21,033 bases of DNA, from positions 1-21,033 of IMG/VR virus record IMGVR_UViG_3300032291_003254. One strand, written 5' to 3'. The position numbers and the translations under genes were made by a program. The notes under the pieces are model-generated. The model searched no databases. It saw only the letters and a list, made by a program, of their open reading frames with translations, and was not told where the DNA came from. This document shows, in pieces, positions 2,803-20,988 of the stretch (position 1 is the first letter of the stretch; every line of letters starts with the position of its first letter). Source of the DNA: a virus.

Positions 2803-2805
2803 ATA
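2800..2805 (+). promoter_or_regulatory. Weak late-promoter-like TAAATA at gp25 start
   Basis: TAAATA overlaps the gp5 stop codon; the octamer GTTAAATA (2798-2805) matches 6 of 8 bases of the T4 late promoter core TATAAATA. It ends only five bases before the gp25 ATG, so a transcript from it would start at or past the ATG. It is listed mainly because the same hexamer recurs at two other gene starts. Confidence 0.15.
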
Positions 2806-2810
2806 TACAC

Positions 2811-3185
2811 ATGCCTGCATTCATTGGTTTTAACACACAAGGTCAGTATAAAAAGTTTACGTTGACAGATTCAGCGTTGATCAAACGTGACCTTCTAAAC
2901 GCTCTTAATATTCGTCAAGGGCAAATCCCCGGCCGCCCCCAAGTAGGGACTATACTGTGGGACAACTTGTTTGATAATCAAACAAACGAAACTGAACGAG
3001 CAATACTCAATGAAATACAAAGAGTAGCCGGCGGCGACCCACGTCTGCAAATATCCACTGTGGAAATTTTCCCCCAACAAAACGGATTACTGTTGCAGGT
3101 TGAGATAATTTTGGTTCCCAGCACAGAGCCCGAGCGCCTGTCTATTTTCTTTGATCAAAACACACGCAACGCAAGCTATGTTTAA
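2811..3185 (+). CDS. 25: Baseplate wedge protein gp25 (GPW/gp25 family)
   Basis: This 124-aa protein matches the size (T4 gp25 is 132 aa) and layout of the gp25 / phage P2 GpW / TssE family. Family members sit in the inner wedge and form the platform from which the contractile sheath starts to polymerise. The N-terminal region holds an Asp/Leu-rich helix (SALIKRDLLNALNI, residues 21-34), followed by the family signature: GQIPGRPQVGTILWDNLFD at residues 37-55, a helix (NETERAILNEIQRVAGGDPR, 59-78), and two C-terminal strands ending in EIILVPSTEPERLSIFF. No signal peptide or membrane segment is present. The ATG lies 8 nt after the gp5 stop, with only a weak AAGG about 12 nt upstream, so coupling to gp5 translation is likely. 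Lying between gp5 and gp6 fits baseplate assembly; in T4, gene 25 sits in a different cluster. Confidence 0.88.
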   Translation: MPAFIGFNTQGQYKKFTLTDSALIKRDLLNALNIRQGQIPGRPQVGTILWDNLFDNQTNETERAILNEIQRVAGGDPRLQISTVEIFPQQNGLLLQVEIILVPSTEPERLSIFFDQNTRNASYV

Positions 3186-3204
3186 CTGAGCCGTTTTTAA
3201 GTTC

Positions 3205-3212
3205 CATAAATA
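3205..3212 (+). promoter_or_regulatory. Candidate T4-type late promoter upstream of gene 6
   Basis: CATAAATA matches the T4 late promoter core TATAAATA at 7 of 8 bases and lies in the longest intergenic gap in the window (45 nt, 3186-3230), 18 nt before the gp6 ATG. In T4 this element is read by RNA polymerase with the phage sigma gp55 and clamp gp33/gp45. A start point about 10 nt downstream would leave a leader of only some ten bases. Confidence 0.5.
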
Positions 3213-3230
3213 AACAAATAATGGACTACT

Positions 3231-6200
3231 ATGGCTAAGACTACTAGACAAACTGCTATTTTTGGGGTAGAGGACTGGAAAAGAATCTATCAAACTTATC
3301 GTGAAGCTGACTTCCAAAGCTACGACTTTGAAACGTTGCGTAAGAGTTTTGTAGATTATCTACGCTTATACTATCCCGAAACTTTTAATGACTACATTGA
3401 AAGTTCTGAATTCATTGCCTTGCTTGATATTATTGCATTTATGGGGCAGAGCCTTGCATTCCGCAATGATTTAAATGCAAGAGAAAACTACATTGACACA
3501 GCAGAACGTCGAGACAGTGTTGTCAAACTGGCAACACTGGTTGGTTACACCCCAAAACGCAATACATCTGCATCTGGTTATCTTAAAATTTTCTCGGTAA
3601 ACACAACTGAGAATGTGACTGATGTTAACGGTATCAATTTGGCCAACATCACAGTCAACTGGGCAGACCCAACAAACTTTAGCTGGCAAGAACAATTTTC
3701 TGCTATTATCAATGCCAGCTTGGTGAGCAGCCAACGCATCGGACGTCCAGGCAATCGATCAAATATTCTAGGTGTAGACACTTCGGAATATACTGTAAAT
3801 TTGGTCCCTGGTTACCTGCCTGTTATCCCTTACAGTGCCACAGTGGACGGAGTAAGCATGCCGTTTGAAGCAGTGAATGCCACTTCTGTAAACAGAGAAT
3901 ATGTTTACGAACCAAGCCCACAACCCAATGGCGAGTTTAATATTCTATTCCGTAACGACTCACTGGGATTTAACTCTGCCAACACCGGCTATTTCTTCCT
4001 GTTCAAACAGGGTGTTTTGCAAAGCCAAGATTTTAACTTGGCTGATAGAGTCAGCAACCAAGCAGTTAACATCAATATCGAAGGGTGTAACAATGACGAC
4101 CATTGGTTATATCAAATTGATGATGTAGGCACAGTGGCATCAGAATGGAAATGGGTTGAAAGTGTATACGCTGCGGCAGCAGAGCAAACAGATCCTGGCG
4201 TTAGAAAATTATTTTCAATCACAAGTCGTGCCAATGATCAAATTACATTGAACTTTGGCGACGGTGTGTTTTCTGAGATTCCAGTTGGCACCTTCCGTGC
4301 TTATGTCCGTGCATCCAATGGATTGCAATATATCATCAACCCAGAAGAAATGCAAAGTGTAGTGATTCCTATCAGCTACATCAGCCGTTCTGGTCAGTTG
4401 GAAACAATCACATTCACTTGTGGTATTACCACACCTGTGTCAAACGCACAACCACGTGAAACAATCGACGAGATCAAGCAACGTGCTCCTGCTCGTTACT
4501 ACACACAAAACCGCATGGTCAATGGCGAAGACTATAATAATTTCCCATTTACTGCATACAACTCAATTATCAAATCCAAAGCACTGAACCGTGCCAGCAT
4601 TGGCACAAGTAGATACCTGGAACTGGTTGACGGCACTGGAAAATATGCATCAACCAACAGTTTTGCAAGCGACGGTGCATTGTATGAAAACTATGCTCTC
4701 CCTGCGTTTCAGTTCACCTATACCACAAGCAATGAAGTTGCCAACGTTATCAGCAATAGAGTGCAACCAATTCTACGTGAAAGTTTAATGCAGCAATTTT
4801 ATTATGCTGAATTTCCAAGACCCAGTTTGGTGAGTTTAAATGTATCCTGGAATCAGAGCACTACAATTTCTAATACAACCACAGGATTTTTTGTTAACAA
4901 TCTTGGAAACCCAGTTCCTATTGGTCCATACACAGCCGACAACAAAAAATATATTGTTGTTGGAAGTTTGGTTAAATTTGAAGCTCCTGCAGGATACTAC
5001 TTTGATGTCAACAACAGACTCAAAGCTGGTGTTCCAACCCGCGCTGATGAAAAGTTAGTGATATGGGCAAGCCCAACCAGCGTGTATCTTGAAGGCACCA
5101 ACAGTGGTGAAGGAAACTTGCCAAGTGGCCTTGGACCAGTTGCGCTGAACAATTTTATTCCAACAGGGGCAATTGCCACACAAGTTATCCCTATCTTTAT
5201 CACGGACTTGCCAGTGTCGTTTGAAAGCTCAATGGCCGAACAAATCTTATTAAACAGAAATTTTGGCATAGGATACGACAGCCAAGGCAACATAACAGGC
5301 ACTGCCGGAACTTGGTATTTGATTACATCTACAAACCTAGCACAAGGCGCTGATTTTAGTTTGGCAAATGCTGGTAGCACCGCAGGCACCAATCTTGATG
5401 CAAGTTGGTTGGTAGAGTTCATCACTGACGGAAGCACATACACAGTGAGTTCAAGAGCACTCGAGTATTTGTTTGGCTCTGTGTTGCAAAATCGTTTCTT
5501 CTTCTATGGCGACGAGCAAGTGTATGACAGTAGAACCGGAACTGTAATCAAAGACTTTGTTAATGTATTAAAAACCAACAGCAGACCTGACAGTGCATTG
5601 CCACTAGCTGAAGATATCAAACTTGAAATTGTTGATCAACCTGTGTTGAGTGATGGTTATGTTGATGACTTCCAAGTTTTGGTCAGCTTTAAAGATTCAG
5701 ATGCAGATGGTGTTCCAGACAATCCCGATTTCTTCAATGACATTGTTGCGCCTAGCGTGAACCCAACATCAAAACTTGTGTTCTTGGAAAAAACAGTTGA
5801 CTTTGACAATTTAGAAAGATACTTGCTGGTCGAAAGCGGACGTGTGAATTCAGAGTATGCAACATTGGATGACATTGAATTGGTCAAAGAGCAATATGCC
5901 AATGGTCAAGTGTTTTATACATATACCTCTGAGCAGTTCTATCAGCTGGCAGTAAATGTAACAACTGGATTGAGAACATTATCCAATGTAAGCACAGCAT
6001 GGATAGCAAGAACCGGTCGCCAGAATCTATACTTCCAGTATAGACACAATAGTCCGTTGACAGCACGTATTGATCCAGGCACAAGTAATATCATTGACTT
6101 GTATGTGGTTACATCTCAATACTATACAGCATATCAAAATTATATTCGTGATGTGACTGGCACCATACCTGAGCCATTGCCTCCCACTATCAACGAACTA

Positions 6201-6660: not shown

Positions 6661-9600
6661 ATGGCACGAGTTAGAACGGTAGAATTTTTACCTGAGATTT
6701 TTCAAACTTCTACGAACAAGCAATTCCTTGCTGCTACGTTAGATCAACTGGTGCAAGAACCAGCGTTTACAAAAATCCAAGGCTTTGTTGGACGACGTGT
6801 CGGTCCAGGTGTCAATCCAAATGATGAGTATATCAAAGAAACCACTGACGTAAGAACAAACTATCAGCTTGAACCAGGTGTGGTTCTTAAAAAATACAAC
6901 ACAAGTGATGTCAAGGATGTTATCACATACCCAGGTATCACTGATGCAATTAACCTCGCTGGCGGTATCACCGACGACTCTGACAGACTGTATACAAGTG
7001 ATTATTACACTTGGGATCCGTTTATTGATCTTGACAAGTTCTCAAACTTTAGTCAATACTATTGGTTACCTGCTGGCCCAGATGCAGCGGACGTATATGC
7101 TGGTCAGTTGCCATTAACTGACACATTTGATGTCACTAGAGAAAACGGTGTTTATACATTTAGTGGGTTGTCTGGCGACAACCCTGTGGTGCGTTTGGTT
7201 CGAGGCGGCTCTTATAATTTTAATGTTGCACAAAATGCCAAGGAAACTGTCAACTACCGTGTGACATCCAACAGCACTTCGTCGTTTGTTATTGATTACC
7301 AAAATAATCCTACGCTAACACTCACTCGTGGCAATACTTACGTATTCAACTTGACAAGAAATGAATATGCATTTTACATCAAAACAGATCCTACTCTAGG
7401 CACAACAAACCAGTATACCACTGGGGTAACAAACAACGGTATTGTCAACGGAAAAATTACGTTTACTGTGCCACAAGATGCCCCTGACACATTGTATTAT
7501 TGCAATGACATCCAGAGAAATCTCAAAGGCACATTAAACATCATTGATGCTGTGCCTGGTACCGGTCCAGGATTCTGGATTCAAGTTGACCCAGGTGTTG
7601 ACGGCAAAGTTATTGCCACTCCCAACATCAGTGGTAGAGATGTTCTTGGTGTAGTAAACAACGGCGAAGACCTTGGAACTGTGACATTCAACGTTCCATT
7701 GGCCACTGCTCAGAGTTTTTATTATGGGCTAACCAATATTGATAGCAGTTTACCCACCAATGGTGTTGACTTAATAACCTCTTTAAAGTTTAACCAGATC
7801 AACAACATATTCGTTGATCAGTTTCTGTTGCAAAATCCAACAGGTATTGATGGTATCACAAACTTAGATGGCAAAACAATTGTATTCCAAGAACAACAAC
7901 CTGATCCAGAAGCAGGTGGTTGGGAAATCACAACTCAGTTTGATCCACTAATCGAGTCGTCAGGCAACAACGGACGCATTGGCTCTTACGATACTACATT
8001 GTTTGATCAAACAACTGTGATCGATCCGTCGCAACGTTACGGTGTGTGGCAAATCAACTATGTTACTACTGAGGGCGGCAACAAGTATATCAGATTGACC
8101 TCTATCCTGTCAGTAAACAATCTCGAAAAATTTAATGTTTTATCTGGCACAACATATTCCAGCACAGAATGGTTTAAAAATGCCTCTGGGGTGTTTGAAC
8201 AGATACCATTGCTGACTGCAGTCAAAACAACATTGTATTATCAAGATGGCACAGACCCAGAGATTTTTGGTAGAATCCAGATTGTAGACGAAGCAAACGC
8301 AGGCACCCTGGACGTAAACGAAATCATTGGAAAGAAAAACTACACAAGTCCCAACGGTGTTGTGTTTACCAACGGACTAAAAATTACATTTGTTGGCAAT
8401 GTTGAACCAGCAAGCTATCAAGACAACAGTTATTACATTGAAGGTGTTGGCACAGCAATTAAATTGTTGCCAGTAACTGACTTTGTAACACCTGAGACAT
8501 ACACACAAAGTGCAACTATCCCATACGATAGTTTGGCCTACGATATTGGTAACTTTGATGCAAGTTTGAACCAACCGTTGATACCTGACTATCTTACTAT
8601 CAATCGAGCTAGCCTTGATCTCAATGCATGGTCAAGATCAAACCGATGGTTCCATATTGATGTTATCAATGCTTCGGCAGAATACAACAACACAATAGCA
8701 ACACTAGACAACAATTTTAGAGCCAAGCGCCCCATCATTGAATTCAGAGCCGGCACACGATTATTTGATAATGGCACTTCTGGAAAACAACCAGTTAACA
8801 TTATTGACTTTGCTGCAACTGATGCGTTGAGCACTATCAACGGCAGTGTTGGATACAGCATCGACGGATACTCGTTTATCAATGGATCTAGAGTTATTTT
8901 TGCAGCAGACACAGATCCAAATGTTCGTAATAAAATTTATGTAGTTGAATTTATTAGTCCAGATACTGTTCCACCACTGATTACTGAGCCAATTATCAAT
9001 TTGGTTCCTGCAACAGACTCTGCTGTTTTAGCAGATCAAACTGTTGTTTGTTTGTCGGGTATACAACAACAAGGTAAAAGCTATTACTATGATGGTGTTG
9101 AGTGGCTGCTTGCACAACAAAAAACTGAGACCAATCAGCCACCATTGTTCAATGTATATGATGTAGATGGTGTAAGTCTTGGTAATCGTGTTAAATATCC
9201 ATCTACAAACTTTGTTGGTAGTAAATTATTTTCTTATGCAGTAGGCACTGGCACTGACGATACAGTTCTAGGATTTCCGTTGAAATACTTGAGCTTGAGC
9301 AATGTCGGCGATATTGTGTTTGACAACAATTTATACTCAGATGAATTTACCTACACCAAAGATCGAGTATCCAGCACCGAACTGGTCAGCCAAGGCAATG
9401 TAAGAGAATACAGCACACGAACTGCTTATGTAAAAGAAATTGGGTGGCAACGGGCCGCAGAAAAGAGTGTGGTAAGACAACAGTTTAGTTTTACATATAC
9501 CGGTGCTCCGTTGGTTCTTGACATACCAGTTGACACCACATCAAAGTTCCCCCCAATTCAACTTTATGCCAGCGGGATCTTTATTGATCCCAACGATTAC

Positions 9601-12600
9601 ACTTACACAGTCACAGGCAACACAACAACTATTATCATTGGCACCATTGACGAATTTGCTGGCATAGGTAGTATCATTGAAGTTGATGCATTGAGTGCCT
9701 TGACAAGCAAGTATGGATTTTATCAAGTGCCTGTAAACCTTGAGAACAATCCGCTAAACGGCAACAGCAAAACATTCACCCTGGGCACTGTAAGATCTCA
9801 TTATGAATCAATTGGTGAAAACCTCAAAGGCCTAGTTGGTAAAATTAATGGGGCAAACAACAGTCGGGACTTAGGAAATATTATTCCATACGGCGAGAAC
9901 ATTTTACAACAAAGTTCTCCAATGACAATGGCTGGCTATTTCATGCGCAGCCAAGAATATAATATTTTCACATCTCTTGAGTATAACAGCAGAGAATACG
10001 AAAAATTCAAAGCTCAATTGTTAGATACTGTGACTCGAAACGACTATACAAATCTAACAATACCTGAAATGCTCACAGCAGCATTTAACGACATTAATGC
10101 TGGTAAGATTGAAACATCTCCGTTCTATTGGTCGGACATGTTACCGGCCAGTTCAATCTACACACAAAATATTGTAAAGATCACTCCAATCTCTACCAAT
10201 GTTTTTGATCTCTCAACCACTTACGATTTTACCAGTTCCAACTACAAAGGTCTGTTGGTATACTTGAACAACGTGCTGTTGACAATCGACAAAGACTATA
10301 CTGTTTCCCCAGACAGTCCTCGTTTGACTATCACAGCCACATTAGCCGTTGGAGACACAGTTACCATTAGAGAATATACTACCACCTACGGTAACTTTGT
10401 TCCTAATACCCCAACAAAGATGGGTTTATATCCTGCCTATCGTCCTCGCATTTACTTAGATACAAACTACGTAAATCCGCAAACAATGATTGTTGGACAC
10501 GATGGTAGCTTGACTGCGGCATTTGGTGATTTTAGAGATGACCTGTTGTTAGAATTTGAAACTAGAATTTTCAACAACTTAAAAGTCAAGAGCAGGATTC
10601 CACTGACCACAGTTGATATTATTCCAGGCCAGTTCAGAACAACTGATTACACTTTGTTTGAAGTAAATTCAATATTGTCAGTTGACTTTTTGAGTTGGAT
10701 TGGTTGGAACAAACTTAACTACCTGTCACAAGATTATATTGCATCAAACGAATTCACTTGGAACTACAGTGCTTGCGGCAACAGATTAACAGGACCAAAC
10801 GAATCCCCATTGAACATTGGTGCATGGCGTGGCTTGTATCAATATTTTTACGATACCACAAGCCCCAACACCACACCTTGGGAAATGTTAGGTTTCACAA
10901 TTGAACCATCATGGTGGCAAGATGTTTACGGTGCTGCCCCTTATACCAGTGATAACTTGGTGTTGTGGGATGACCTTGCAGCAGGCAAGGTTGCTGATCC
11001 TGCAGGCGAATACTACCTCACACAGTATGCTAGACCAAGACTGACTGAAGTTATTCCTACTGGCACACAAGGCGAACTATTAAGTCCGTTTGACAGTGTG
11101 GTTGGATTTTACGATTCAAGTCAATTCCAAAAGTCCTGGGTAGTTGGTGACGAAGGTCCTGTTGAATATTCTTGGCGCAAGAGTTCGAGCTATCCTTTTG
11201 CGCTGATGCGTTTGTATGCTCTGACTCGCCCTGCAGAATTCTTCTCGTTGTTTGCTGACCGCGACCTTTACAAATTTGATGCTGATTACAATCAATACTT
11301 GTATAACGGTCGTTACAGACTGGATGCAAATGGTGTTCAGGTCTACGGCGACGGCACAAGCAAAGCCAGCTTTATCAATTGGATTGTTGATTATAACCAA
11401 CAAACTGGTTTGAGCAGCACAGCAAATCTAACCAAAGATCTTGAGAGTTTGGATGTGCGCTTGTGCTATCGAATTGGCGCATTTACTGATAAACAATATC
11501 TAAAAGTTTACACAGAAAAGTCTAGCCCTAACAGCTTGAACTCTAGCTTGTTGTTGCCTGACGAAAGCTATAGCTTGATGCTATACAAAAATCAACCGTT
11601 TGAAAGAGTATTATATAGTTCGGTTATTTTCCAGGTTGTTGAGAATGGATATGCACTGTATGGTTACAGCATTACTTCACCATATTTTAACACACTGGTT
11701 AGTAAAACATACGGAACTAAAACTACAATCACTGCCGGCGGCCAAAGTGTAACTGTTCCTGCTCAATATACCGATGATGTAGTTCAAGTGCCTTATGGTT
11801 ATGTATTCACTAACAAGACTGTGGTTGTTGACTTTTTACTAAGTTACGGCGCATTGCTAGAACAGCAAGGTATTATCTTTAATGATAGAGAAAACGGATA
11901 TACCCTTAACTGGAATCAGATGGCCCAGGAATTTTTATATTGGGCAAATCAAGGCTGGGAACCAGGTGCAGTTATTAACCTTAACCCAACTGCATTTAGT
12001 TTAACAGCCGTGCAACCGCAGGCAATCATTGATAGCATAGTTGCACAAACTCCTGAAAACAGTATTCTTGATCAAAATAGATCCACTCTACCTATTCGCA
12101 ACTTGGTGATAGATCGCAACGAAAACATTTTTAAAGTATCTACGCTAAATGAACAAACTATCAGTTATCTAGATCTCAAGTTTACAAACTATGAAAGTAT
12201 TGTTGTTCTAGACAACGTCAGTGTGTTTAACGATTTGATTTATGATCCAGTCACTGGCGCAAGACAAAGTAGAGTCAACGTCACTGCTATCATCAACTCT
12301 GATTGGAACGGCCAATTAGATGCACAAGGATTTATTTTTAACAATAGTGAAACCATCGAAGAATGGCAACCACAGAAAAAATATGCCAAGGGCGAAATTG
12401 TTACCTACAAAAATAATTATTGGTCGGCACAAACTATTGTGCAGCCAAAGGCGTTGTTTGAATACAGCGACTGGGTAAAGAGCGATTACACAAAAATTCA
12501 AAAGGGCTTGTTGCAGAACTTGCCTAACTTGAGCGATCAGTTGTCGAACTCATACAACACCAACACTGCAAATCTGGAAACAGATCAGGATCTGGTGTCT

Positions 12601-15600
12601 TTTGGACTAATTGGATTCCGCCCAAGAGAGTATATGTCTGCATTGAATCTTGACGATATTAGTCAGGTCAATGTATACAAGCAATTCCTCAAAGACAAAG
12701 GAACTGTTCGCAGCGTAAGACTAATTGGTAATGCTCAAACAAACAAGGAAGTTGCAGAATACGATCTTTACGAAAATTGGGCAATACTCAGAGGCACCTA
12801 CGGTGCTACTGCAAACAAGAGCTTTGTTGAACTACGTCTCAATGAAGCACTGTTGCTAGCAGATCCAGCAATTGTGCAAATTGTCAACGTCGGCCAAGAA
12901 AGTCAAGCTGATCAAAAAATCTTATTAAATGATTTGTGGCGCCAAAGCTATAAGATTCCAACCACAGATGTGTTCCCTACCACACTCATACCGATACAAG
13001 ATTCTGCATTGCCCACAGCTGGTTATGTTAATCTTGATGATGTTGATCTCACTGTGTTCTCGTTGGATGCTGATTTAGGTCTTGCACCGGGTGTGATAGA
13101 CTCCATTGGCGTTGGCACAACAATTTGGGCAGCTAAAATTAATGCATACGATTGGGGAGTTTTCCGTTGTATGCCTGTTCCAGGATTTGTAAGACAAATC
13201 TCTACAAACTTGAACTCTACTAGTGTTGTTACATTTACAGGTAAACATAATCTGTCGATATACGACATAATAGTGATTAGAAATTTTGCAGACAACGTCG
13301 ACGATGTGTATAGAGTATTAGCAGTACCATCTGCAAATACAATTGTGGTTGAGTTGCCGTTGACAAGAAGCATCACCGGCGAAGGTGTTGCTGTTGTATT
13401 AAAAACAATGCGTGTTGCACAAGCAAGTGATGTTATTAATTTGAGTTATGCAAATGAACTCACTGCTGGTGCAAAAGCCTGGGTTGACAACAACGGAAAT
13501 GGTCTATGGCAAGTTCTTGAAAAACAAACTCCATTCTCTCAAACTGTTAATAATACTCTGCCCAACAATGCTCCTATCTACGGTGCTCGATTTGGCAGTG
13601 TTATATCACAAGGCTATCAAAATATCATTGCAGTGGTTGGTGCTCCTGGATACAGAACACCAACTGAAGAATCAGCACAAATCGGTGCAGTTTATCCTTA
13701 TCTCAGAGATAACTCGAATCAGTATGCTGAAACTGCTACTCTTACCTTGGGAACAACTGGAACTCTGGGATACGGAAATGCAGTTGACATCGGCTATCAA
13801 AGTTGGCTTGCAGCAGGTGCCAGTGCATCCAACAACAACATGGGCTATTCTGCGGTAATATATCGTGCAGAAAATAGCAACGCCTTTGAACAACGACAAC
13901 TACTTGTTGCACCGGACCAAGATTTTGGCTCAGGTGAGTTTGGTTATGCAGTATCAGTCAGCAGAGATGAGCGTTGGATGTATGTTGGTGCCCCGGGCAA
14001 TAACAAAGTCTATGCATTTGCTAGACAAGATGTTGAGCTACAAATCGCTCGTTATGTAACAGATGGTATAACAAAAATATATTCATTTGACGGCAAAATT
14101 GTTATCGACTCAGGCGAAGATGAGCAACTTAATGTAGTTTACAATAACAAATTGTTAGTTCTTGGAACGGATTATACTGTCACTGGCACAAACGTTGTAT
14201 TAACTGATTTGCCGCCGGCAGACCAACTTTTAATTATACAACGCAAGCAAGGACAGATTCTAGATAGCAAGACCTATTACAAGGTATCGCAGGATGGCAC
14301 ATCGGGATCAGGATCGGCTGCTGAGTTTACAATCACTAATACCCGAGGGGAATATTTTGCAACAGTTACCGCAGTGGGTGCAAATTATGCAGTAGGTAAT
14401 ACTGTGACATTTGACGGCTCGACTTTGGGAACAGAAAATTCTTTACCCAATGCACCTACTACTCCTGCAAACAATTTGGTATTAACAGTCACAGGAGTTG
14501 ATGACAACGGCGGTATCACTGACTTTACAGTAAGTGGGTCTGGTATAACCAATAATTATATTTTCCCAATTACTCCGTATCTATACGGCATTGAAAATAT
14601 TTGGTCAATGTCTGTGACTGTGGATGGTGTATTGCAAAGACCATTTATTGACTACGACTTTAACAGTGACAGCGCATATGCAAACGACATTGTGTTTAAT
14701 ACTATACCGGCAGCCGGAGCAAGCATAGCTGTTACTGCAACGACACAATTTACTTTTGTTGATACTCTTGATGTTTCAGGTCTTGCCCCTGATGCAAGAT
14801 TTGGTGCAAGCCTAGCTCAAATTGATTCAGGAAGAGTTGTCGTGGTTGGTGCAAGTAATGCTGATACCACAGTAAGCAACAGTGGTGCAAGCTATGTGTT
14901 TAGTCGTGGCACTATCAAGTATATTGTTAGTGATGTATCGCAAACAACATTTGAATTGCCAGCAGGATTTAATGCGCCGGCGGCAGTTGTGCTTAATGGA
15001 GAATACTTAACAAATTCTGCACAGTATATCAACGGTCAATATTCTGTTGTTGGCACAGATGTAATTCTCGACAGTTCTGTAACATTAAATGTTGGTGATG
15101 CCATTGAAATAGAAAATAATATTTTTAATTTGGTGCAAACTATCACAGGAGCCTCGCCGTTCGACGAAGCAAGTTTTGGTGCAGCATTGGATATATGCCC
15201 GACAAATTGCAGTCTTTATATTGGTGCACCAACTGACGGATCGTTGCAAATCCAGGCCGGTTCTGTTGAACGTTTTGTGAACCAAGCCAGACTGTATGGT
15301 GTGATAACATCTACAAATGTATCGCCAACATTGACTCCTGGCGGCACTATGTTTATCAGTAACTTTGAAGTTACTTTATCAACACCAGCGACCTGGGATT
15401 CATTGGTAGAATATGCCAGCGGCACATTTGTAATTAACAGCGGTGACATATATCAGGCAATTAGAAATGTTCCTGTTCCAACACCGATTACTAATACAAC
15501 CTACTGGAAACCCAGCAGTTGGATTGAAGTGTTTTCCGGCGATATCAATGATGCAAATTTACCGAACATCACATCTTCGGTCAGAAATGGTTTAATCACA

Positions 15601-18600
15601 ATAAATGTTATTAATCCAGATGCAGCCATTGAATTCAACAAGCTATCAGTATCACCAGGTTTGACTGGCACATTGTTCAATGATGTGGGTTTTGATGTGT
15701 ATGTATACACTCAAACCATTATCAGCCCTAACCCTTCTATAAATGCAAAATTTGGTTCGTCGTTGTCAATCTCATCTGACTCACAGACATTGATTGTGGG
15801 TGCGCCGGGTGGCAACACATATGAACCAGTTACATTTGATAACAAGACTACAATTTTTGATGATCGTAGCACAATATTCTCAAGTGTTGTGATCGAAGGT
15901 GGTGCAGTATATTCATTTGATATGCTAGCAAGTGCAGACTCGAGTATAACAAACCCTGTTAAGTTTGTGTTTGGACAACAAATTTACAATGAAGATTTGG
16001 AACCACTTGATCAGTGGGGCACATCTGTTAGCTATGTCAGCGGCAGATTGTTAGTTGGTGCGCCGGGCAGTGACCTTGGCGACAGCTCTGTAAATTACGG
16101 TAGCGTTGGTATTTTTGAAAATACAACCAATCGTCCTGCTTGGTATCCAATTCATGTTCAAGAGCCAACAGCAGATGTAACATTGTTCAACAATGTTTAT
16201 TTGTATAACAAGTTGCAATCTAGTAAAACAAACTTCCTGGATTATATTAATCCTTTGCAAGGCAAGATTTTGGGTGCTGCACGTCAGAACATTGATTACA
16301 TCAGTGCTGATGACCCAGCAAAATACAATCAAGGTCCAATAAACGACAATGGTAATTTCTGGGCAGAAGAAAAAGTAGGACAAATTTGGTGGGATATCAG
16401 TTCTACTAGATTCATTGATCCAAGTCAGAACGACATTGTTTACGCAAGTCGTCGATGGGCACAACTGTTCCCTGGTAGCACAGTTGAAATTTATCAATGG
16501 GTAGCGAGTAGTGTGCTACCAGCAGCGTATACTGGACCAGGCACTCCGTTGAACACTATCAGTTATACTGTTAGAACACAACTAAATCAACAAGGTGTGT
16601 TTGTTACAACCTATTATTTCTGGGTAACAGGTATTGACACAATCAACAGCGGTGCTGGAAAAACATTGAGTACCACTGGTATTGCTAGATACATTGAAAG
16701 CCCACGCAGTTCGGGAATTCCGTATATTGCACCTCTTGATGCCAATACTATAGCTATCTATAATTCGCTCGAATATTTGAGTGCATCTGATACGATTATC
16801 AATATTGGTTATGATAGAGAGCGTAACGATGACAACATTCATACAGAATATGAGTTGATTGCTCAAGACGATCCTTCAAGTTTCTTGAGTGACAATCTGT
16901 ATAGAAAATTACAAGACAGTTTCTGTGGAGTAAACTCTGCTGGTGCGCTAGTGCCCGATATTACTCTAAGTCCTGCTGAACGTTACGGTGTGCAGTTCCG
17001 TCCTCGTCAGAGCATGTTTGAAAATAGATTTAGTGCGCTCAACAATTACTTGACATATACTAATTCGATCCTACAGCAACATCCAATTACAGAGAGCCGT
17101 TCATTTATTTTGTTAAACAGTTCTGAACCACAACCAACCGCGGCAAGCGGAGAATGGAACAAACGATTAAACAACATTCAAGAACTATCTTACCAAGATC
17201 TGTATGAAGTTGCCCTTGGTTACAAATATCTAATCGATTCAGACAGCAACAACGGGGGACTGTGGACAATTTACACAGTGGTCCAGCAAACAGACTTGTT
17301 GGGCTCACCGAGAACCACTCAGTTGACCAGAGTGCAGAACTACGACACAAGAAAATACTGGAATTATATTGATTGGTATGATATTACTTACAACACTACT
17401 CAAGTTCCTGTGTATGAAGTTGCAAACTATTCGGATCTGGCAACTGTAGAATTGATAACACCATTGGGTGCCAGCGTAAAAGTCACTGCCAACGCACAAC
17501 AAAAATGGGAAATATATCAACGTGTTACAACTGGATGGTCACGTGTTAGCCTTCAAGATGGAACCATTGCATTTAGTAATGTGCTTTGGGACTATGCTGC
17601 TGGCCGTTTTGGATTTGACGTTGAAGTATTTGATGTTCAATACTTTGACTCTGAACCGGTAATTGAAACTAGAAAAATTATTCAAGCTATCAACGAAGAA
17701 TTGTTCATTGAAGATTTGGCAATTTATCGCAATAAAGCATTGATCCTAATGTTCAATTACATGTTGAGTGAATTCCAAGCACCTGAGTGGCTGACTAAAA
17801 CCAGTTTGATCGATGTAAATCACAAAATCCGTGAATTGCTACCATTCCAGGTGTTCCGTCAGGACAATCAAGACTTTGTGCTCGATTATATACAGGAAGT
17901 CAAACCTTACCATGTGCAGATCAAAGAGTTTAATTTAACATACAACGGTCAAGACATATACGATGGTCAATTGTCAGACTTTGATGTTCCTGCATATTAC
18001 AATCGTTTATTGGAGATTCCAAAGTATACCAGCCCTGTGCTGTTACCTTACACCAAGAGCAATGCAGTTGGCACCGGAACACCAAACGACGCATCTGATG
18101 CATACAGCGATGATGAAATTTGGACATTGTGGCCTTGGAGCCAATGGTATGCAAATTACCTCTTGAGCATTGACAGTGTGTCAATCATCGACGGCGGTGC
18201 CGGTTACTCTGAACCACCACTGGTTACAGTCACTGGAGACTGCGAAGTACCTGCTGAACTTGAAGCAGTTATCAACAGTGCTGGTAAAGTTGTTGCTATC
18301 AATGTTATCAATCCCGGTGTTGGGTATTCTACCACTGCAATAATTGAAATTACCGAAGGCAACGGCGTCGGCGCAAGAGCTTATGCTGTTATGGGCAACC
18401 AACTGGTAAGATCTATAAAGACTACATTAAAGTATGACCGCTGCGAATACACTTCGACGGTGGTTGACTGGGCAGCAAACACTACCTACGCTACCGGTAG
18501 CCTAGTGCGCTACAACGATAAAGTATGGAGTGCCAATTCAACAACTACCTCGGCAACTTTTAATCCAGACAACTGGACACCAGTGCCTGCAAGTGATCTA

Positions 18601-20988
18601 GGAGCAGCAGATCGTGTTCAAGGATATTACGCACCTACTGCCAATCAGCCAGGTTTGCAATTGCCATTGTTGATTGACGGTATTGAATATCCAGGAGTGC
18701 AAGTTGCCGGAGTCAACTTTGATCAAAACACAGGATTTGATATCGGTAACTTTGACATCAATCCTTTTGATAACATCAGCTACGGTCCTGAAGGTCGTCC
18801 AACATACGATCCTGCTATTCTTGATGCAATTTATGAAAGCCCGTATTTGGATCCGTTCCTTGGCACACGTGCCACTGACATCAATGTCGACGGCGGCACA
18901 TATATTGATACATTCTCAAGTTTTGCTCCTGAAGAATTAGTTCCTGGTGCAGAGTTTGATACACTTGATATGCGCATCTATACTCGCCCAGGTGCAGACT
19001 GGGCAGTGAACGGACACGGGTTTAGTTCGCATTCAAGTGCTATTATTGTAGAATCTTTGCCACAAACTTATAGTTTTGTATCATGGTATGACTATGTTCC
19101 GTATCTTGTGACCATTGTGTTAACAAACCAAACCACAGGAGTTGAAATGCTCCCGGATGTTGACTATACTATTGATTGGGGCTCAAAAGAGTTTACTGTT
19201 ACTGCTGGATGCAACGTAGGCGACATATTGGTTGGCACAGCATACGGCGCAGGTGGTGGCAATCAACTGTATCGTGTGAATTATGTAGGAAATGAAATCA
19301 GCAACAATCGCATTAGTGTTCCGGTATTGTTTACACAAATTCAAGAAGTTGATGTGTGGGTAAACGGCACACCATATACTAATGTAACTTATGCAGCAGG
19401 AACAAACAACACAACAACTGTGACATTTGGTACATCTTTCAGTGCTGCCGACTTGGTGGTTGTATATGTGTTGGGCCCAACAACTGTCGACAGCACTCAA
19501 GTAAATTACAGCTGGAGTGCTCCTGTCACACAATATATTGTGTCTGACGGATCGTCGTTGATTTTTGATCTTGACAACAGTTTGGAGTATACCAATCCTG
19601 CTAACATGATTGTTACTGTAAACGGCGTAAGAGCAAGAACTGCTGGTGGTGTTGAATATTTTGCTGATGGTAGCTCTGCATACTTGTTGCCTGCACGATT
19701 GGGATTCAGTGATGCAATAGTAGCAGATAACGAAGTGTTGGTATACATCAACGACATTCCTCAAACACTTGGCTCTGACTTTGTGGTAGAACCTTACACA
19801 GGAGATCACAGACATGTTGTGTTCAACACAACTCCAGCCGACGGAGAGAGAATCTTGATTGCTGTGACAACAAATACTCAAGCTCGTGTTGATAGTGGGA
19901 CTAGTTTGTATTTTGACCCAACCCAAGGACTAATTCCAGTAACTGGAGACATAATTGCTGTTACCACATGGAATGACACTCGTCAACAGGAAATTGTCAC
20001 TACTGTTTATGTTGGTCCAGTTGTGTCTGGCTCAGTGGTCACTGAAGGTTTTGACTCTACTGATTATTCGTCAGCTACGTTGAACAACGAACCGGGCAGT
20101 TTTGACTACGCACTTGGTGTAACTGTAAGCAACAACAATTTATATCTTCCAAGACCTGTTACCAACCCAGATCGTTTGTGGGTAACATTGAATGGAGATC
20201 GATTGTTCTTTGGAGAAGATTTTACCATTGTAAATGATGAGATTATTCTGGCCAGAGGAATTATCAATACTACTGATGTTGTGATGATCACTGAGTTTAC
20301 AAACAGTGTTGTTCCTGAAGCCATGGCATTCCGCATATTCCAAGACATGCGTGGCGTGCAAGCAACTTACAGAATCACACCTAACACTACCACAGTGTTA
20401 ACACAAACACTAGGCGAAAATGATGATGTGATCTATGTGGATGATGCTTCTAAACTTGATGCACCAAATGTTACTGCTAATATTTGGGGTGTGTTAACAA
20501 TTGGCGGCGAACGCATTATGTATCGTAACAGAGACATTGCTACTAATACTATCAGTAGCTTGCGTCGAGGCACAGGTGGCACAGCAGTTGATTCACACGA
20601 AGCTGGTGTTGTTGTTTATGCAATGGGTCGCGGCGAAATTATGCCAGCAGAATTCCAAAACTACATCGACAGCAATTACTTCTTGGGAGACGGATCTACA
20701 GTGGCATTTGAAGCAACCAACATCACATTCAGCGACACTGATAGCGCTCTGGAAGTTGATGCAGTTGAAGTTTGGGTAGGCGGCACTAGAATAACAAGCG
20801 GATATGCTGTTACAGGAGCCACTCCAGTTGGAATTGAATTTGATACAGCACCAGCAGCTGGAACCGGAATTACTATTTTGGTAAGACGCGGTGTAAATTG
20901 GTATCAACCGGGCGTTAATACACCAAGCGACGGTGTTGCATTGCAAGATACAAACACTGATGCGGCAAGGTTCTTACGCGGGCTGTAA
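6661..20988 (+). CDS. Giant (4775 aa) modular tail/baseplate structural protein at the gp7 position
   Basis: Large virion protein, probably attached to the baseplate wedge; it follows gp6 as gp7 (1032 aa) does in T4. The N-terminus (FLPEIFQTSTNKQFLAATLD; GFVGRRVGPGVNPNDEYI; YYTWDPFIDLDKFSNFSQYY) resembles a giant protein family that I recall from marine T4-like phages. Blocks of that scaffold recur at ~620-720 (YLTINRASLDLNAWSRSNRW), ~1155-1310 (FYWSDMLP; GHDGSLTAAFGDFRDDLLLE), ~1405-1450 (TPWEMLGFTIEPSWWQDVYG), ~1500-1540 and ~3680-3780 (HKIRELLPFQVF; IQEVKPYHVQIKEFN). Between them lie beta-rich modules: cupredoxin-like halves (181-357), FG-GAP-like repeats (2309-3155), CBM5/12-like modules (1902, 2912, 3937), a GGAGY repeat (3841-3911) and C-terminal beta-sandwich repeats (4141-4747). 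There is no signal peptide, membrane segment or visible enzyme motif, and Cys is rare. The reading frame is intact throughout. The structural role is confident; equivalence to gp7 and host-surface binding are inference. Confidence 0.85.
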   Translation: MARVRTVEFLPEIFQTSTNKQFLAATLDQLVQEPAFTKIQGFVGRRVGPGVNPNDEYIKETTDVRTNYQLEPGVVLKKYNTSDVKDVITYPGITDAINLAGGITDDSDRLYTSDYYTWDPFIDLDKFSNFSQYYWLPAGPDAADVYAGQLPLTDTFDVTRENGVYTFSGLSGDNPVVRLVRGGSYNFNVAQNAKETVNYRVTSNSTSSFVIDYQNNPTLTLTRGNTYVFNLTRNEYAFYIKTDPTLGTTNQYTTGVTNNGIVNGKITFTVPQDAPDTLYYCNDIQRNLKGTLNIIDAVPGTGPGFWIQVDPGVDGKVIATPNISGRDVLGVVNNGEDLGTVTFNVPLATAQSFYYGLTNIDSSLPTNGVDLITSLKFNQINNIFVDQFLLQNPTGIDGITNLDGKTIVFQEQQPDPEAGGWEITTQFDPLIESSGNNGRIGSYDTTLFDQTTVIDPSQRYGVWQINYVTTEGGNKYIRLTSILSVNNLEKFNVLSGTTYSSTEWFKNASGVFEQIPLLTAVKTTLYYQDGTDPEIFGRIQIVDEANAGTLDVNEIIGKKNYTSPNGVVFTNGLKITFVGNVEPASYQDNSYYIEGVGTAIKLLPVTDFVTPETYTQSATIPYDSLAYDIGNFDASLNQPLIPDYLTINRASLDLNAWSRSNRWFHIDVINASAEYNNTIATLDNNFRAKRPIIEFRAGTRLFDNGTSGKQPVNIIDFAATDALSTINGSVGYSIDGYSFINGSRVIFAADTDPNVRNKIYVVEFISPDTVPPLITEPIINLVPATDSAVLADQTVVCLSGIQQQGKSYYYDGVEWLLAQQKTETNQPPLFNVYDVDGVSLGNRVKYPSTNFVGSKLFSYAVGTGTDDTVLGFPLKYLSLSNVGDIVFDNNLYSDEFTYTKDRVSSTELVSQGNVREYSTRTAYVKEIGWQRAAEKSVVRQQFSFTYTGAPLVLDIPVDTTSKFPPIQLYASGIFIDPNDYTYTVTGNTTTIIIGTIDEFAGIGSIIEVDALSALTSKYGFYQVPVNLENNPLNGNSKTFTLGTVRSHYESIGENLKGLVGKINGANNSRDLGNIIPYGENILQQSSPMTMAGYFMRSQEYNIFTSLEYNSREYEKFKAQLLDTVTRNDYTNLTIPEMLTAAFNDINAGKIETSPFYWSDMLPASSIYTQNIVKITPISTNVFDLSTTYDFTSSNYKGLLVYLNNVLLTIDKDYTVSPDSPRLTITATLAVGDTVTIREYTTTYGNFVPNTPTKMGLYPAYRPRIYLDTNYVNPQTMIVGHDGSLTAAFGDFRDDLLLEFETRIFNNLKVKSRIPLTTVDIIPGQFRTTDYTLFEVNSILSVDFLSWIGWNKLNYLSQDYIASNEFTWNYSACGNRLTGPNESPLNIGAWRGLYQYFYDTTSPNTTPWEMLGFTIEPSWWQDVYGAAPYTSDNLVLWDDLAAGKVADPAGEYYLTQYARPRLTEVIPTGTQGELLSPFDSVVGFYDSSQFQKSWVVGDEGPVEYSWRKSSSYPFALMRLYALTRPAEFFSLFADRDLYKFDADYNQYLYNGRYRLDANGVQVYGDGTSKASFINWIVDYNQQTGLSSTANLTKDLESLDVRLCYRIGAFTDKQYLKVYTEKSSPNSLNSSLLLPDESYSLMLYKNQPFERVLYSSVIFQVVENGYALYGYSITSPYFNTLVSKTYGTKTTITAGGQSVTVPAQYTDDVVQVPYGYVFTNKTVVVDFLLSYGALLEQQGIIFNDRENGYTLNWNQMAQEFLYWANQGWEPGAVINLNPTAFSLTAVQPQAIIDSIVAQTPENSILDQNRSTLPIRNLVIDRNENIFKVSTLNEQTISYLDLKFTNYESIVVLDNVSVFNDLIYDPVTGARQSRVNVTAIINSDWNGQLDAQGFIFNNSETIEEWQPQKKYAKGEIVTYKNNYWSAQTIVQPKALFEYSDWVKSDYTKIQKGLLQNLPNLSDQLSNSYNTNTANLETDQDLVSFGLIGFRPREYMSALNLDDISQVNVYKQFLKDKGTVRSVRLIGNAQTNKEVAEYDLYENWAILRGTYGATANKSFVELRLNEALLLADPAIVQIVNVGQESQADQKILLNDLWRQSYKIPTTDVFPTTLIPIQDSALPTAGYVNLDDVDLTVFSLDADLGLAPGVIDSIGVGTTIWAAKINAYDWGVFRCMPVPGFVRQISTNLNSTSVVTFTGKHNLSIYDIIVIRNFADNVDDVYRVLAVPSANTIVVELPLTRSITGEGVAVVLKTMRVAQASDVINLSYANELTAGAKAWVDNNGNGLWQVLEKQTPFSQTVNNTLPNNAPIYGARFGSVISQGYQNIIAVVGAPGYRTPTEESAQIGAVYPYLRDNSNQYAETATLTLGTTGTLGYGNAVDIGYQSWLAAGASASNNNMGYSAVIYRAENSNAFEQRQLLVAPDQDFGSGEFGYAVSVSRDERWMYVGAPGNNKVYAFARQDVELQIARYVTDGITKIYSFDGKIVIDSGEDEQLNVVYNNKLLVLGTDYTVTGTNVVLTDLPPADQLLIIQRKQGQILDSKTYYKVSQDGTSGSGSAAEFTITNTRGEYFATVTAVGANYAVGNTVTFDGSTLGTENSLPNAPTTPANNLVLTVTGVDDNGGITDFTVSGSGITNNYIFPITPYLYGIENIWSMSVTVDGVLQRPFIDYDFNSDSAYANDIVFNTIPAAGASIAVTATTQFTFVDTLDVSGLAPDARFGASLAQIDSGRVVVVGASNADTTVSNSGASYVFSRGTIKYIVSDVSQTTFELPAGFNAPAAVVLNGEYLTNSAQYINGQYSVVGTDVILDSSVTLNVGDAIEIENNIFNLVQTITGASPFDEASFGAALDICPTNCSLYIGAPTDGSLQIQAGSVERFVNQARLYGVITSTNVSPTLTPGGTMFISNFEVTLSTPATWDSLVEYASGTFVINSGDIYQAIRNVPVPTPITNTTYWKPSSWIEVFSGDINDANLPNITSSVRNGLITINVINPDAAIEFNKLSVSPGLTGTLFNDVGFDVYVYTQTIISPNPSINAKFGSSLSISSDSQTLIVGAPGGNTYEPVTFDNKTTIFDDRSTIFSSVVIEGGAVYSFDMLASADSSITNPVKFVFGQQIYNEDLEPLDQWGTSVSYVSGRLLVGAPGSDLGDSSVNYGSVGIFENTTNRPAWYPIHVQEPTADVTLFNNVYLYNKLQSSKTNFLDYINPLQGKILGAARQNIDYISADDPAKYNQGPINDNGNFWAEEKVGQIWWDISSTRFIDPSQNDIVYASRRWAQLFPGSTVEIYQWVASSVLPAAYTGPGTPLNTISYTVRTQLNQQGVFVTTYYFWVTGIDTINSGAGKTLSTTGIARYIESPRSSGIPYIAPLDANTIAIYNSLEYLSASDTIINIGYDRERNDDNIHTEYELIAQDDPSSFLSDNLYRKLQDSFCGVNSAGALVPDITLSPAERYGVQFRPRQSMFENRFSALNNYLTYTNSILQQHPITESRSFILLNSSEPQPTAASGEWNKRLNNIQELSYQDLYEVALGYKYLIDSDSNNGGLWTIYTVVQQTDLLGSPRTTQLTRVQNYDTRKYWNYIDWYDITYNTTQVPVYEVANYSDLATVELITPLGASVKVTANAQQKWEIYQRVTTGWSRVSLQDGTIAFSNVLWDYAAGRFGFDVEVFDVQYFDSEPVIETRKIIQAINEELFIEDLAIYRNKALILMFNYMLSEFQAPEWLTKTSLIDVNHKIRELLPFQVFRQDNQDFVLDYIQEVKPYHVQIKEFNLTYNGQDIYDGQLSDFDVPAYYNRLLEIPKYTSPVLLPYTKSNAVGTGTPNDASDAYSDDEIWTLWPWSQWYANYLLSIDSVSIIDGGAGYSEPPLVTVTGDCEVPAELEAVINSAGKVVAINVINPGVGYSTTAIIEITEGNGVGARAYAVMGNQLVRSIKTTLKYDRCEYTSTVVDWAANTTYATGSLVRYNDKVWSANSTTTSATFNPDNWTPVPASDLGAADRVQGYYAPTANQPGLQLPLLIDGIEYPGVQVAGVNFDQNTGFDIGNFDINPFDNISYGPEGRPTYDPAILDAIYESPYLDPFLGTRATDINVDGGTYIDTFSSFAPEELVPGAEFDTLDMRIYTRPGADWAVNGHGFSSHSSAIIVESLPQTYSFVSWYDYVPYLVTIVLTNQTTGVEMLPDVDYTIDWGSKEFTVTAGCNVGDILVGTAYGAGGGNQLYRVNYVGNEISNNRISVPVLFTQIQEVDVWVNGTPYTNVTYAAGTNNTTTVTFGTSFSAADLVVVYVLGPTTVDSTQVNYSWSAPVTQYIVSDGSSLIFDLDNSLEYTNPANMIVTVNGVRARTAGGVEYFADGSSAYLLPARLGFSDAIVADNEVLVYINDIPQTLGSDFVVEPYTGDHRHVVFNTTPADGERILIAVTTNTQARVDSGTSLYFDPTQGLIPVTGDIIAVTTWNDTRQQEIVTTVYVGPVVSGSVVTEGFDSTDYSSATLNNEPGSFDYALGVTVSNNNLYLPRPVTNPDRLWVTLNGDRLFFGEDFTIVNDEIILARGIINTTDVVMITEFTNSVVPEAMAFRIFQDMRGVQATYRITPNTTTVLTQTLGENDDVIYVDDASKLDAPNVTANIWGVLTIGGERIMYRNRDIATNTISSLRRGTGGTAVDSHEAGVVVYAMGRGEIMPAEFQNYIDSNYFLGDGSTVAFEATNITFSDTDSALEVDAVEVWVGGTRITSGYAVTGATPVGIEFDTAPAAGTGITILVRRGVNWYQPGVNTPSDGVALQDTNTDAARFLRGL
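7201..7731 (+). other. Nested cupredoxin-like domains in the giant protein
   Basis: Residues 181-357 hold the same pattern twice, one inside the other. The outer copy has RGGSYNFNV (181-189), FWIQVDPG (305 on), GVVNNG (330-335), GTVTFNVP (339-346) and FYYGL (353-357). The inner copy has RGNTYVFNL (223-231), AFYIKTDP (237-244), GVTNNG (255-260), GKITFTVP (264-271) and LYYC (278-281). In copper-binding relatives a His precedes the Phe and CxxHxxM closes the domain. Here those positions read Tyr-Ala-Phe and C281-N-D-I-Q-R-N, so only the Cys remains and copper binding is unlikely. Confidence 0.6.
12364..12489 (+). other. CBM5/12-like module 1 in the giant protein
   Basis: Residues 1902-1943 read W-x5-Y-x-KGEIVTYKNNYWSAQ and end in YSDWVKSD. 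This is the compact aromatic pattern of carbohydrate-binding module family 5/12 (chitin-binding type): a leading Trp, a Y-x-x-G-x-x-V strand, a Y/W-x-A strand and a closing Trp (1938). Binding of a host glycan is inference. Confidence 0.55.
13585..16125 (+). other. Seven-copy FG-GAP-like beta-propeller split by inserted modules
   Basis: Residues 2309-3155 contain seven FG...GAPG-type repeats. FG or its variant is at 2311 (FG), 2371 (YG), 2427 (FG), 2714 (FG), 2839 (FG), 3031 (FG) and 3119 (WG). The matching GAPG/GAS/GAPT is at 2327, 2386, 2443, 2730, 2855, 3047 and 3133. The Gly-to-Gly distance is 15 residues in five copies, 14 in copy 2 and 13 in copy 7. Most copies then end in a hydrophobic strand such as KVYAFAR, ASYVFSR or GAVYSFDM. 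Seven copies is the number needed for one integrin-alpha-like propeller. About 255 residues separate blades 3 and 4, ~85 separate 4 and 5, and ~150 separate 5 and 6. Confidence 0.65.
15394..15525 (+). other. CBM5/12-like module 2, inserted between propeller blades 5 and 6
   Basis: Residues 2912-2955 start W-DSLVEYASGTFVINSGDIY, followed by QAI and a closing TTYWKP (Trp 2949). The same Trp, Tyr-x-x-Gly, Tyr-x-A/S, Trp order as module 1 is kept. It lies in the ~150-residue gap between FG-GAP-like blades 5 and 6, so it would project from the propeller. Confidence 0.5.
18181..18393 (+). other. GGAGY beta-repeat segment in the giant protein
   Basis: Residues 3841-3911 hold two units of a repeat: DGGAGYSEPPLVTVTGD and, 38 residues later, NPGVGYSTTAIIEITEGNG, with a GKVVAINVI strand between them. 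This x-GG-x-GY-x4-P-x-V-x-I pattern is, as I recall, common in phage tail and adhesin proteins, where it is thought to form stacked beta turns. No specific ligand can be named. Confidence 0.5.
18469..18588 (+). other. CBM5/12-like module 3 in the giant protein
   Basis: Residues 3937-3976 read WAANTTYATGSLVRYNDKVW, then SAN, and close with FNPDNWTPVP (Trp 3972). This is the clearest of the three CBM5/12-like copies. It directly follows the GGAGY repeat segment, on the C-terminal side of the last strongly conserved scaffold block. Confidence 0.6.
19081..20901 (+). other. C-terminal string of beta-sandwich repeats in the giant protein
   Basis: From residue ~4141 to ~4747 a loose repeat recurs: a strand ending in V-x-VNG or similar, an 'x-DYT/FTV' strand, and a 'GD/ADx-I/V-x-V' strand. 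Examples are DVWVNGTPYTNVTYA (4231 on), MIVTVNGVRA (4316 on), VLVYINDIPQTLGSDFVV (4359 on), LWVTLNGDRLFFGEDFTI (4506 on) and VEVWVGGTRITSGYAV (4702 on). A different module at 4577-4658 (DDVIYVDDASKLD, then GERIMYRN, SLRRGTGGT, AVDSHEAG) interrupts them. Related units occur singly earlier, near 941-1012, 1170-1240, 2461-2531, 2646-2697 and 2750-2822. They look like structural spacers or adhesion modules. Confidence 0.5.

Follow-up and report, generated by a model that had tools for sequence, protein, structure and literature searches.

The window analysed here is a whole IMG/VR virus record of 21,033 bases, which is itself probably a fragment of a genome. Its genes lie in the order gp5-like hub, gp25, gp6-like wedge and then a giant protein of 4775 residues, labelled in PHROGs as a virion structural protein and nothing more specific. 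The position of the giant gene, after gp25 and gp6, is that of T4 gp7, a likeness of gene order. Profiles of its scaffold did not match any solved structure. The homologue in phage PA5oct is annotated as detected by ESI-MS/MS. The features examined are listed in Table 1.

Table 1. Features of the giant protein and its propeller; positions are those of the window.
Feature	Residues	Position	Strand	Basis
Giant 4775-aa virion structural protein, right after gp6-like gene		6661..20988	+	ORF; phrog_10938, E=1.5e-302
N-terminal flanking scaffold	1010-2250	9688..13410	+	median 58% identity in relatives
W-rich hairpin ahead of blade 1	2270-2292	13468..13536	+	PA5oct comparison, AlphaFold2 strands
Blade 1	FG 2311	13585..13731	+	motif, AlphaFold2 model, blade profile
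Blade 2	YG 2371	13765..13905	+	motif, AlphaFold2 model, blade profile
Blade 3, strands A-C	FG 2427	13933..14028	+	motif, AlphaFold2 model, blade profile
Blade 3 insert, beta module 1 (T7-tail-fibre-N-like kit)	2463-2527	14047..14241	+	module profile (window copy is one of its seeds)
Blade 3 insert, glycine-rich module	2549-2610	14305..14490	+	module profile (window copy is a seed)
Blade 3 insert, beta module 2	2622-2692	14524..14736	+	module profile, E 3e-5, not a seed
Blade 3, strand D (next FG 11 residues on)	2696-2703	14746..14769	+	AlphaFold2 model
Blade 4, strands A-C	FG 2714	14794..14925	+	motif, model, profile; best FG-GAP_2 stretch
Blade 4 insert, beta sandwich	2756-2813	14926..15099	+	AlphaFold2 model
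Blade 4, strand D	2814-2828	15100..15144	+	AlphaFold2 model
Blade 5, strands A-C, conserved CxxxC	FG 2839	15169..15282	+	motif, AlphaFold2 model
Blade 5 insert, flagellin-IN-like domain	2875-3013	15283..15699	+	profile, AlphaFold2 model
CBM5/12-like module nested inside IN-like domain	2912-2953	15394..15519	+	profile
Blade 5, strand D	3014-3020	15700..15720	+	AlphaFold2 model
Blade 6, small B-C loop insert	FG 3031	15745..15984	+	AlphaFold2 model, alignment, blade profile
Blade 7	WG 3119	16009..16158	+	motif, AlphaFold2 model, blade profile
C-terminal flanking scaffold, overlapping blade 7 end	3140-3800	16078..18060	+	profile

The FG-GAP_2 propeller and its inserts

Residues ~2309-3166 of the giant protein hold seven FG...GAP motifs (residues 2311 to 3119), and over this region the Pfam profile FG-GAP_2 (PF14312) reaches 56.6 bits (E=3e-15), its cut-off being 23. 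All of the aligned relatives (33/33) match it as well. The PF01839 FG-GAP profile was dropped as a repeat model since it found no match on the window's record, whereas the related FG-GAP_2 model fits. The original prediction had counted seven FG...GAPG repeats, five of them identically spaced. Both counts stand, the FG-to-GAP spacing being the same in blades 1, 3, 4, 5 and 6, but the GAPG ending is not uniform: blades 2 and 4 finish in GAS, where the integrin FG-GAP/Cage motif has a proline in each blade. Two blades are degenerate, blade 2 (YG...GAS) and the shorter blade 7 (WG).

A blade profile finds exactly seven blades in the window and none in shuffled sequence or on the adjacent scaffold of broader relatives. 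Among 88 non-redundant sequences it counts seven blades in 71, six in 14, five in 3 and never eight; it should be noted that the profile was trained on the propeller family and that the within-family counts hold partly by construction, the independent part of the count being the shuffles, the scaffold controls and the distant relatives. In an alignment of 86 sequences, almost every one retains the FG columns. A CxxxC pair in blade 5, carried by 84 of the 88 sequences, is a possible disulfide or metal site. The propeller-less protein of PA5oct has a hairpin similar to the W-rich hairpin ahead of blade 1.

Single-sequence and profile searches found no significant relative among PDB sequences, and fold comparison was therefore needed. 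AlphaFold2, run on a 33-sequence alignment, predicts the window propeller as one confident fold (pLDDT 88.2, pTM 0.87), and a second model, of the compact relative L034, reaches a pTM of 0.88. In Foldseek, the window model matches integrin-alpha propellers end to end with TM scores (target length) up to 0.59, and the L034 model up to 0.64, both values obtained against integrin alpha5 entries; the top 29 PDB matches of L034 are all integrin headpieces. The rmsd of the integrin matches is large (8-17 Å) because the inserts disturb the superposition. A BFVD search also matches the predicted propeller to other viral FG-GAP proteins, while cyanophage A4 (9k09_U) was set aside as a structural match, its TM being low (0.14-0.17). 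Structure prediction and fold comparison, set beforehand as the test that could refute a ring, gave no separate small folds. By the pLDDT, pTM and TM scores on which closure rests, the seven repeats are predicted to form one closed propeller ring, in agreement with the original prediction.

The large inserts sit in blades 3, 4 and 5, between predicted strands C and D. Strand D and the FG that follows it are 11 residues apart in each of blades 3-6, although blades 3-5 carry inserts of ~58-235 residues. In blades 3-5 the chain passes through strands A-C, then the insert and then strand D; the inserts therefore lie inside the blades, not between them as first proposed. The CBM5/12-like module lies where the original prediction put it (2912-2955), but a glycine-rich module and the flagellin-IN-like domain that hosts the CBM had been missed. 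From ordinary propeller topology, the C-D loops of the consecutive blades 3-5 would share one face.

Several CBM-like stretches occur in the protein. Taken alone, the nested module matches PF02839 weakly (E 0.025, 15 bits vs a Pfam cut-off of 26.2), whereas the whole giant protein scores 39.7 bits, with its best stretch in the C-terminal part (residues 3937-3971, window 18469-18573). An additional CBM-like W/Y pattern lies near residues 1901-1941, within the conserved scaffold. Residues ~3836-3943 (18166-18489) match segments of PHROG hub/lysozyme and Hc2 families, and their glycine-rich repeat type is seen again in the giant protein of Atu_ph07.

Occurrence and module turnover among relatives

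The N-terminal scaffold is common to RaK2, PBECO4, PA5oct and others, and the C-terminal scaffold (median identity 61% over residues 3150-3780) is likewise present in propeller-less phages. Six cultured jumbo phages, namely PA5oct, RaK2, PBECO4, SCTP-2, Atu_ph07 and Vibrio 2.275, have colinear flanks without a propeller at the site. The site measures about 130 residues in PBECO4, about 130-420 across RaK2, PBECO4, PA5oct and SCTP-2, and about 1500 in Atu_ph07 (L064), where a non-propeller block occupies protein residues ~1658-3173. The broader set of scaffold relatives numbers 60; one or more blades can be recognised in 47 of them and none in 13. The sites of the distant relatives L170 and L209 (~1200 aa) hold degenerate blades and long inserts that include CBM-like W/Y modules.

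The original prediction had allowed that the family may be known from marine phages; the propeller region has no match in 50,697 annotated phage records. No propeller candidate was confirmed in prokaryotic genomes. In public viral contigs, 477 candidate stretches were confirmed, spread over hundreds of contigs. In nine phage contigs of 315-364 kb, the FG-GAP_2 matches are confined to the giant protein. The carriers of the propeller are uncultivated jumbo myophages, which form a large group without a cultured member in the collections searched.

The ring is constant across relatives, whereas the inserts vary. Insert lengths are step-like, reflecting the presence or absence of modules, and 18 module patterns occur among 88 sequences; the B-C loop insert of blade 6 is of nearly constant length. 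Some relatives lack the glycine-rich module of blade 3 (a gain or loss on the tree), and L004, L005 and L006 lack the CBM5/12-like module of blade 5, whose IN-like domain may hold no module, a beta module, a CBM or both. Modules are also found elsewhere, namely: CBM-like in blade 1 (L017 and L056), beta after blade 2 (L025, L027 and L030) and glycine-rich in blade 4 (L037). On a scaffold tree built from the N-flank by a quick search, which recombination could distort, slot 3 needs a minimum of 17 state changes and slot 5 of 13, and the CBM in slot 5 changes at least 11 times. Shuffled labels need more changes (27.8 for slot 3 and 40.8 for slot 5), and the modules are therefore mostly inherited, yet change repeatedly. 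Identity among relatives is ~40% in the propeller vs 58-61% in the scaffold, and conservation approaches the scaffold level in blade 3 and the blade 6-7 region. This faster evolution of the propeller could reflect relaxed constraint.

Proposed role and rival explanations

We think it likely, arguing from sequence and models, that the propeller is exposed at the rim of the baseplate as a platform for adhesion, binding the host surface and diversifying as modules are exchanged. Its anatomy and its variable modules fit a display role, and it resembles a platform for surface display that can evolve, probably one for gripping host cells. The fold, blade number, module turnover and absence from cultured relatives are computed; exposure, binding and a role in host range we infer. 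The complete seven-blade FG-GAP_2-type propeller would be a cassette, set at a single place into the giant baseplate protein that follows gp6, with the ends of the ring exiting near blades 7 and 1 and running on into the conserved scaffold. The C-D-loop inserts of blades 3-5 would then lie on one face and within a single sector, roughly across the ring from where it is attached. In these loops, lineages gain, lose and nest small modules without any change in the set of seven blades, drawing on a putative kit of CBM5/12-like, T7-fibre-like beta, glycine-rich and TGTGTA-type modules. The putative ligands are host-surface glycans or proteins, although such beta modules may do no more than act as spacers. 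Domain shuffling is common in phage tail proteins (PMC10684548). Tentatively, the propeller might go further and be a natural combinatorial display scaffold, a fixed ring with defined slots in which binding modules are swapped, nested or lost by recombination, thereby retargeting host attachment.

The main rival to an adhesion platform is a structural or fibre-docking role, in which the propeller would serve baseplate assembly or docking, joined to neighbouring wedges or tail fibres, and the inserts would be spacers or fibre-docking modules. The N-terminal domain of the T7 tail fibre docks fibres, and the propellers of T7-type nozzles are structural. The beta modules resemble that fibre domain, the crAss001 muzzle propeller is structural too (PMC10172136), and the propeller is built into a core baseplate protein between conserved scaffolds, with blade 3 and the blade 6-7 region nearly as conserved as these. 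However, cultured jumbo phages with the same scaffold do without any propeller, and repeated module turnover and CBM-like modules better fit an exposed variable surface; we find a docking role rather doubtful. Neither is it likely that the insert turnover is adaptively meaningless, a product of neutral drift alone in surface loops that tolerate change. Such drift would agree with changes that follow the tree more closely than randomly assigned labels (13 vs 41 in slot 5), most modules being inherited, but one and the same module type turns up in different slots, modules are nested in one another, and the CBM of slot 5 changes state at least 11 times.

That there is no single closed ring, but a set of separate small folds made of tandem FG-GAP motifs and beta-sandwiches, seems very improbable. 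Separate folds would agree with the breaks of up to ~235 residues in the run of motifs and with the degeneracy of some blades. Against this stand two confident predictions, each matched over its full length by whole integrin propellers of seven blades. Most relatives, moreover, have exactly seven blades and none has more, and some distant ones, L227 and L213 among them, carry a propeller nearly free of inserts.

The propeller is a case of an integrin-like adhesion fold within a baseplate protein. For jumbo phages that have no cultured member in the collections searched, it is a well-defined component of the likely adsorption apparatus, and one that lends itself to testing. The relatives form a comparative series for the evolution of a display platform, from no propeller through a nearly bare propeller to a loaded one.

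Comparison with known systems

The split arrangement, which the original prediction suggested might be undescribed, has precedent. In integrin alpha-I subunits a domain is inserted between blades 2 and 3 (PMC10659397), and in the seven-blade propeller of crAss001 muzzle gp44 Ig-like domains occupy two places, one inside blade 3 and the other between it and blade 2 (PMC10172136). What holds of that claim is the FG-GAP baseplate version: the literature on FG-GAP with phage, jumbo phage, baseplate or tail fibre yielded nothing relevant (most subscription papers lay outside the search), and an FG-GAP propeller in a baseplate protein family with module turnover appears undescribed in the literature searched. 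gp44 and the T7-type nozzle belong to the hexameric nozzle of short-tailed phages, which has a ring-joining domain, whereas the window holds a contractile-tail baseplate cluster; the gp5, gp25 and gp6 neighbours of the giant speak against membership of the crAss/T7 nozzle group.

Among jumbo phages, the giants of RaK2, PBECO4, PA5oct and SCTP-2 share the scaffold on both sides, and several of them the gene order, but have no propeller at the site. Atu_ph07 has an FG-GAP_2 propeller in its 'hemagglutinin' gp320 (393 aa), which differs in being a separate gene without large inserts. This stand-alone propeller gene (L228 2519-3700) adjoins a tail-sheath gene. With the integrin alpha headpiece, the phage propeller shares seven FG-GAP blades and the same predicted fold (TM 0.59-0.64), but it is only ~10% identical and carries its inserts in the C-D loops of blades 3-5. 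Integrin-type alpha propellers have DxDxDG calcium loops (PMC3192720); this motif has one weak match in 616 blades of the family. In repeat type the propeller agrees with FG-GAP_2 propellers, given a profile over cut-off in the window and its relatives and seven blades, from which the window's differs by its place in a 4775-residue phage baseplate protein and by the variable modules inside its blades.
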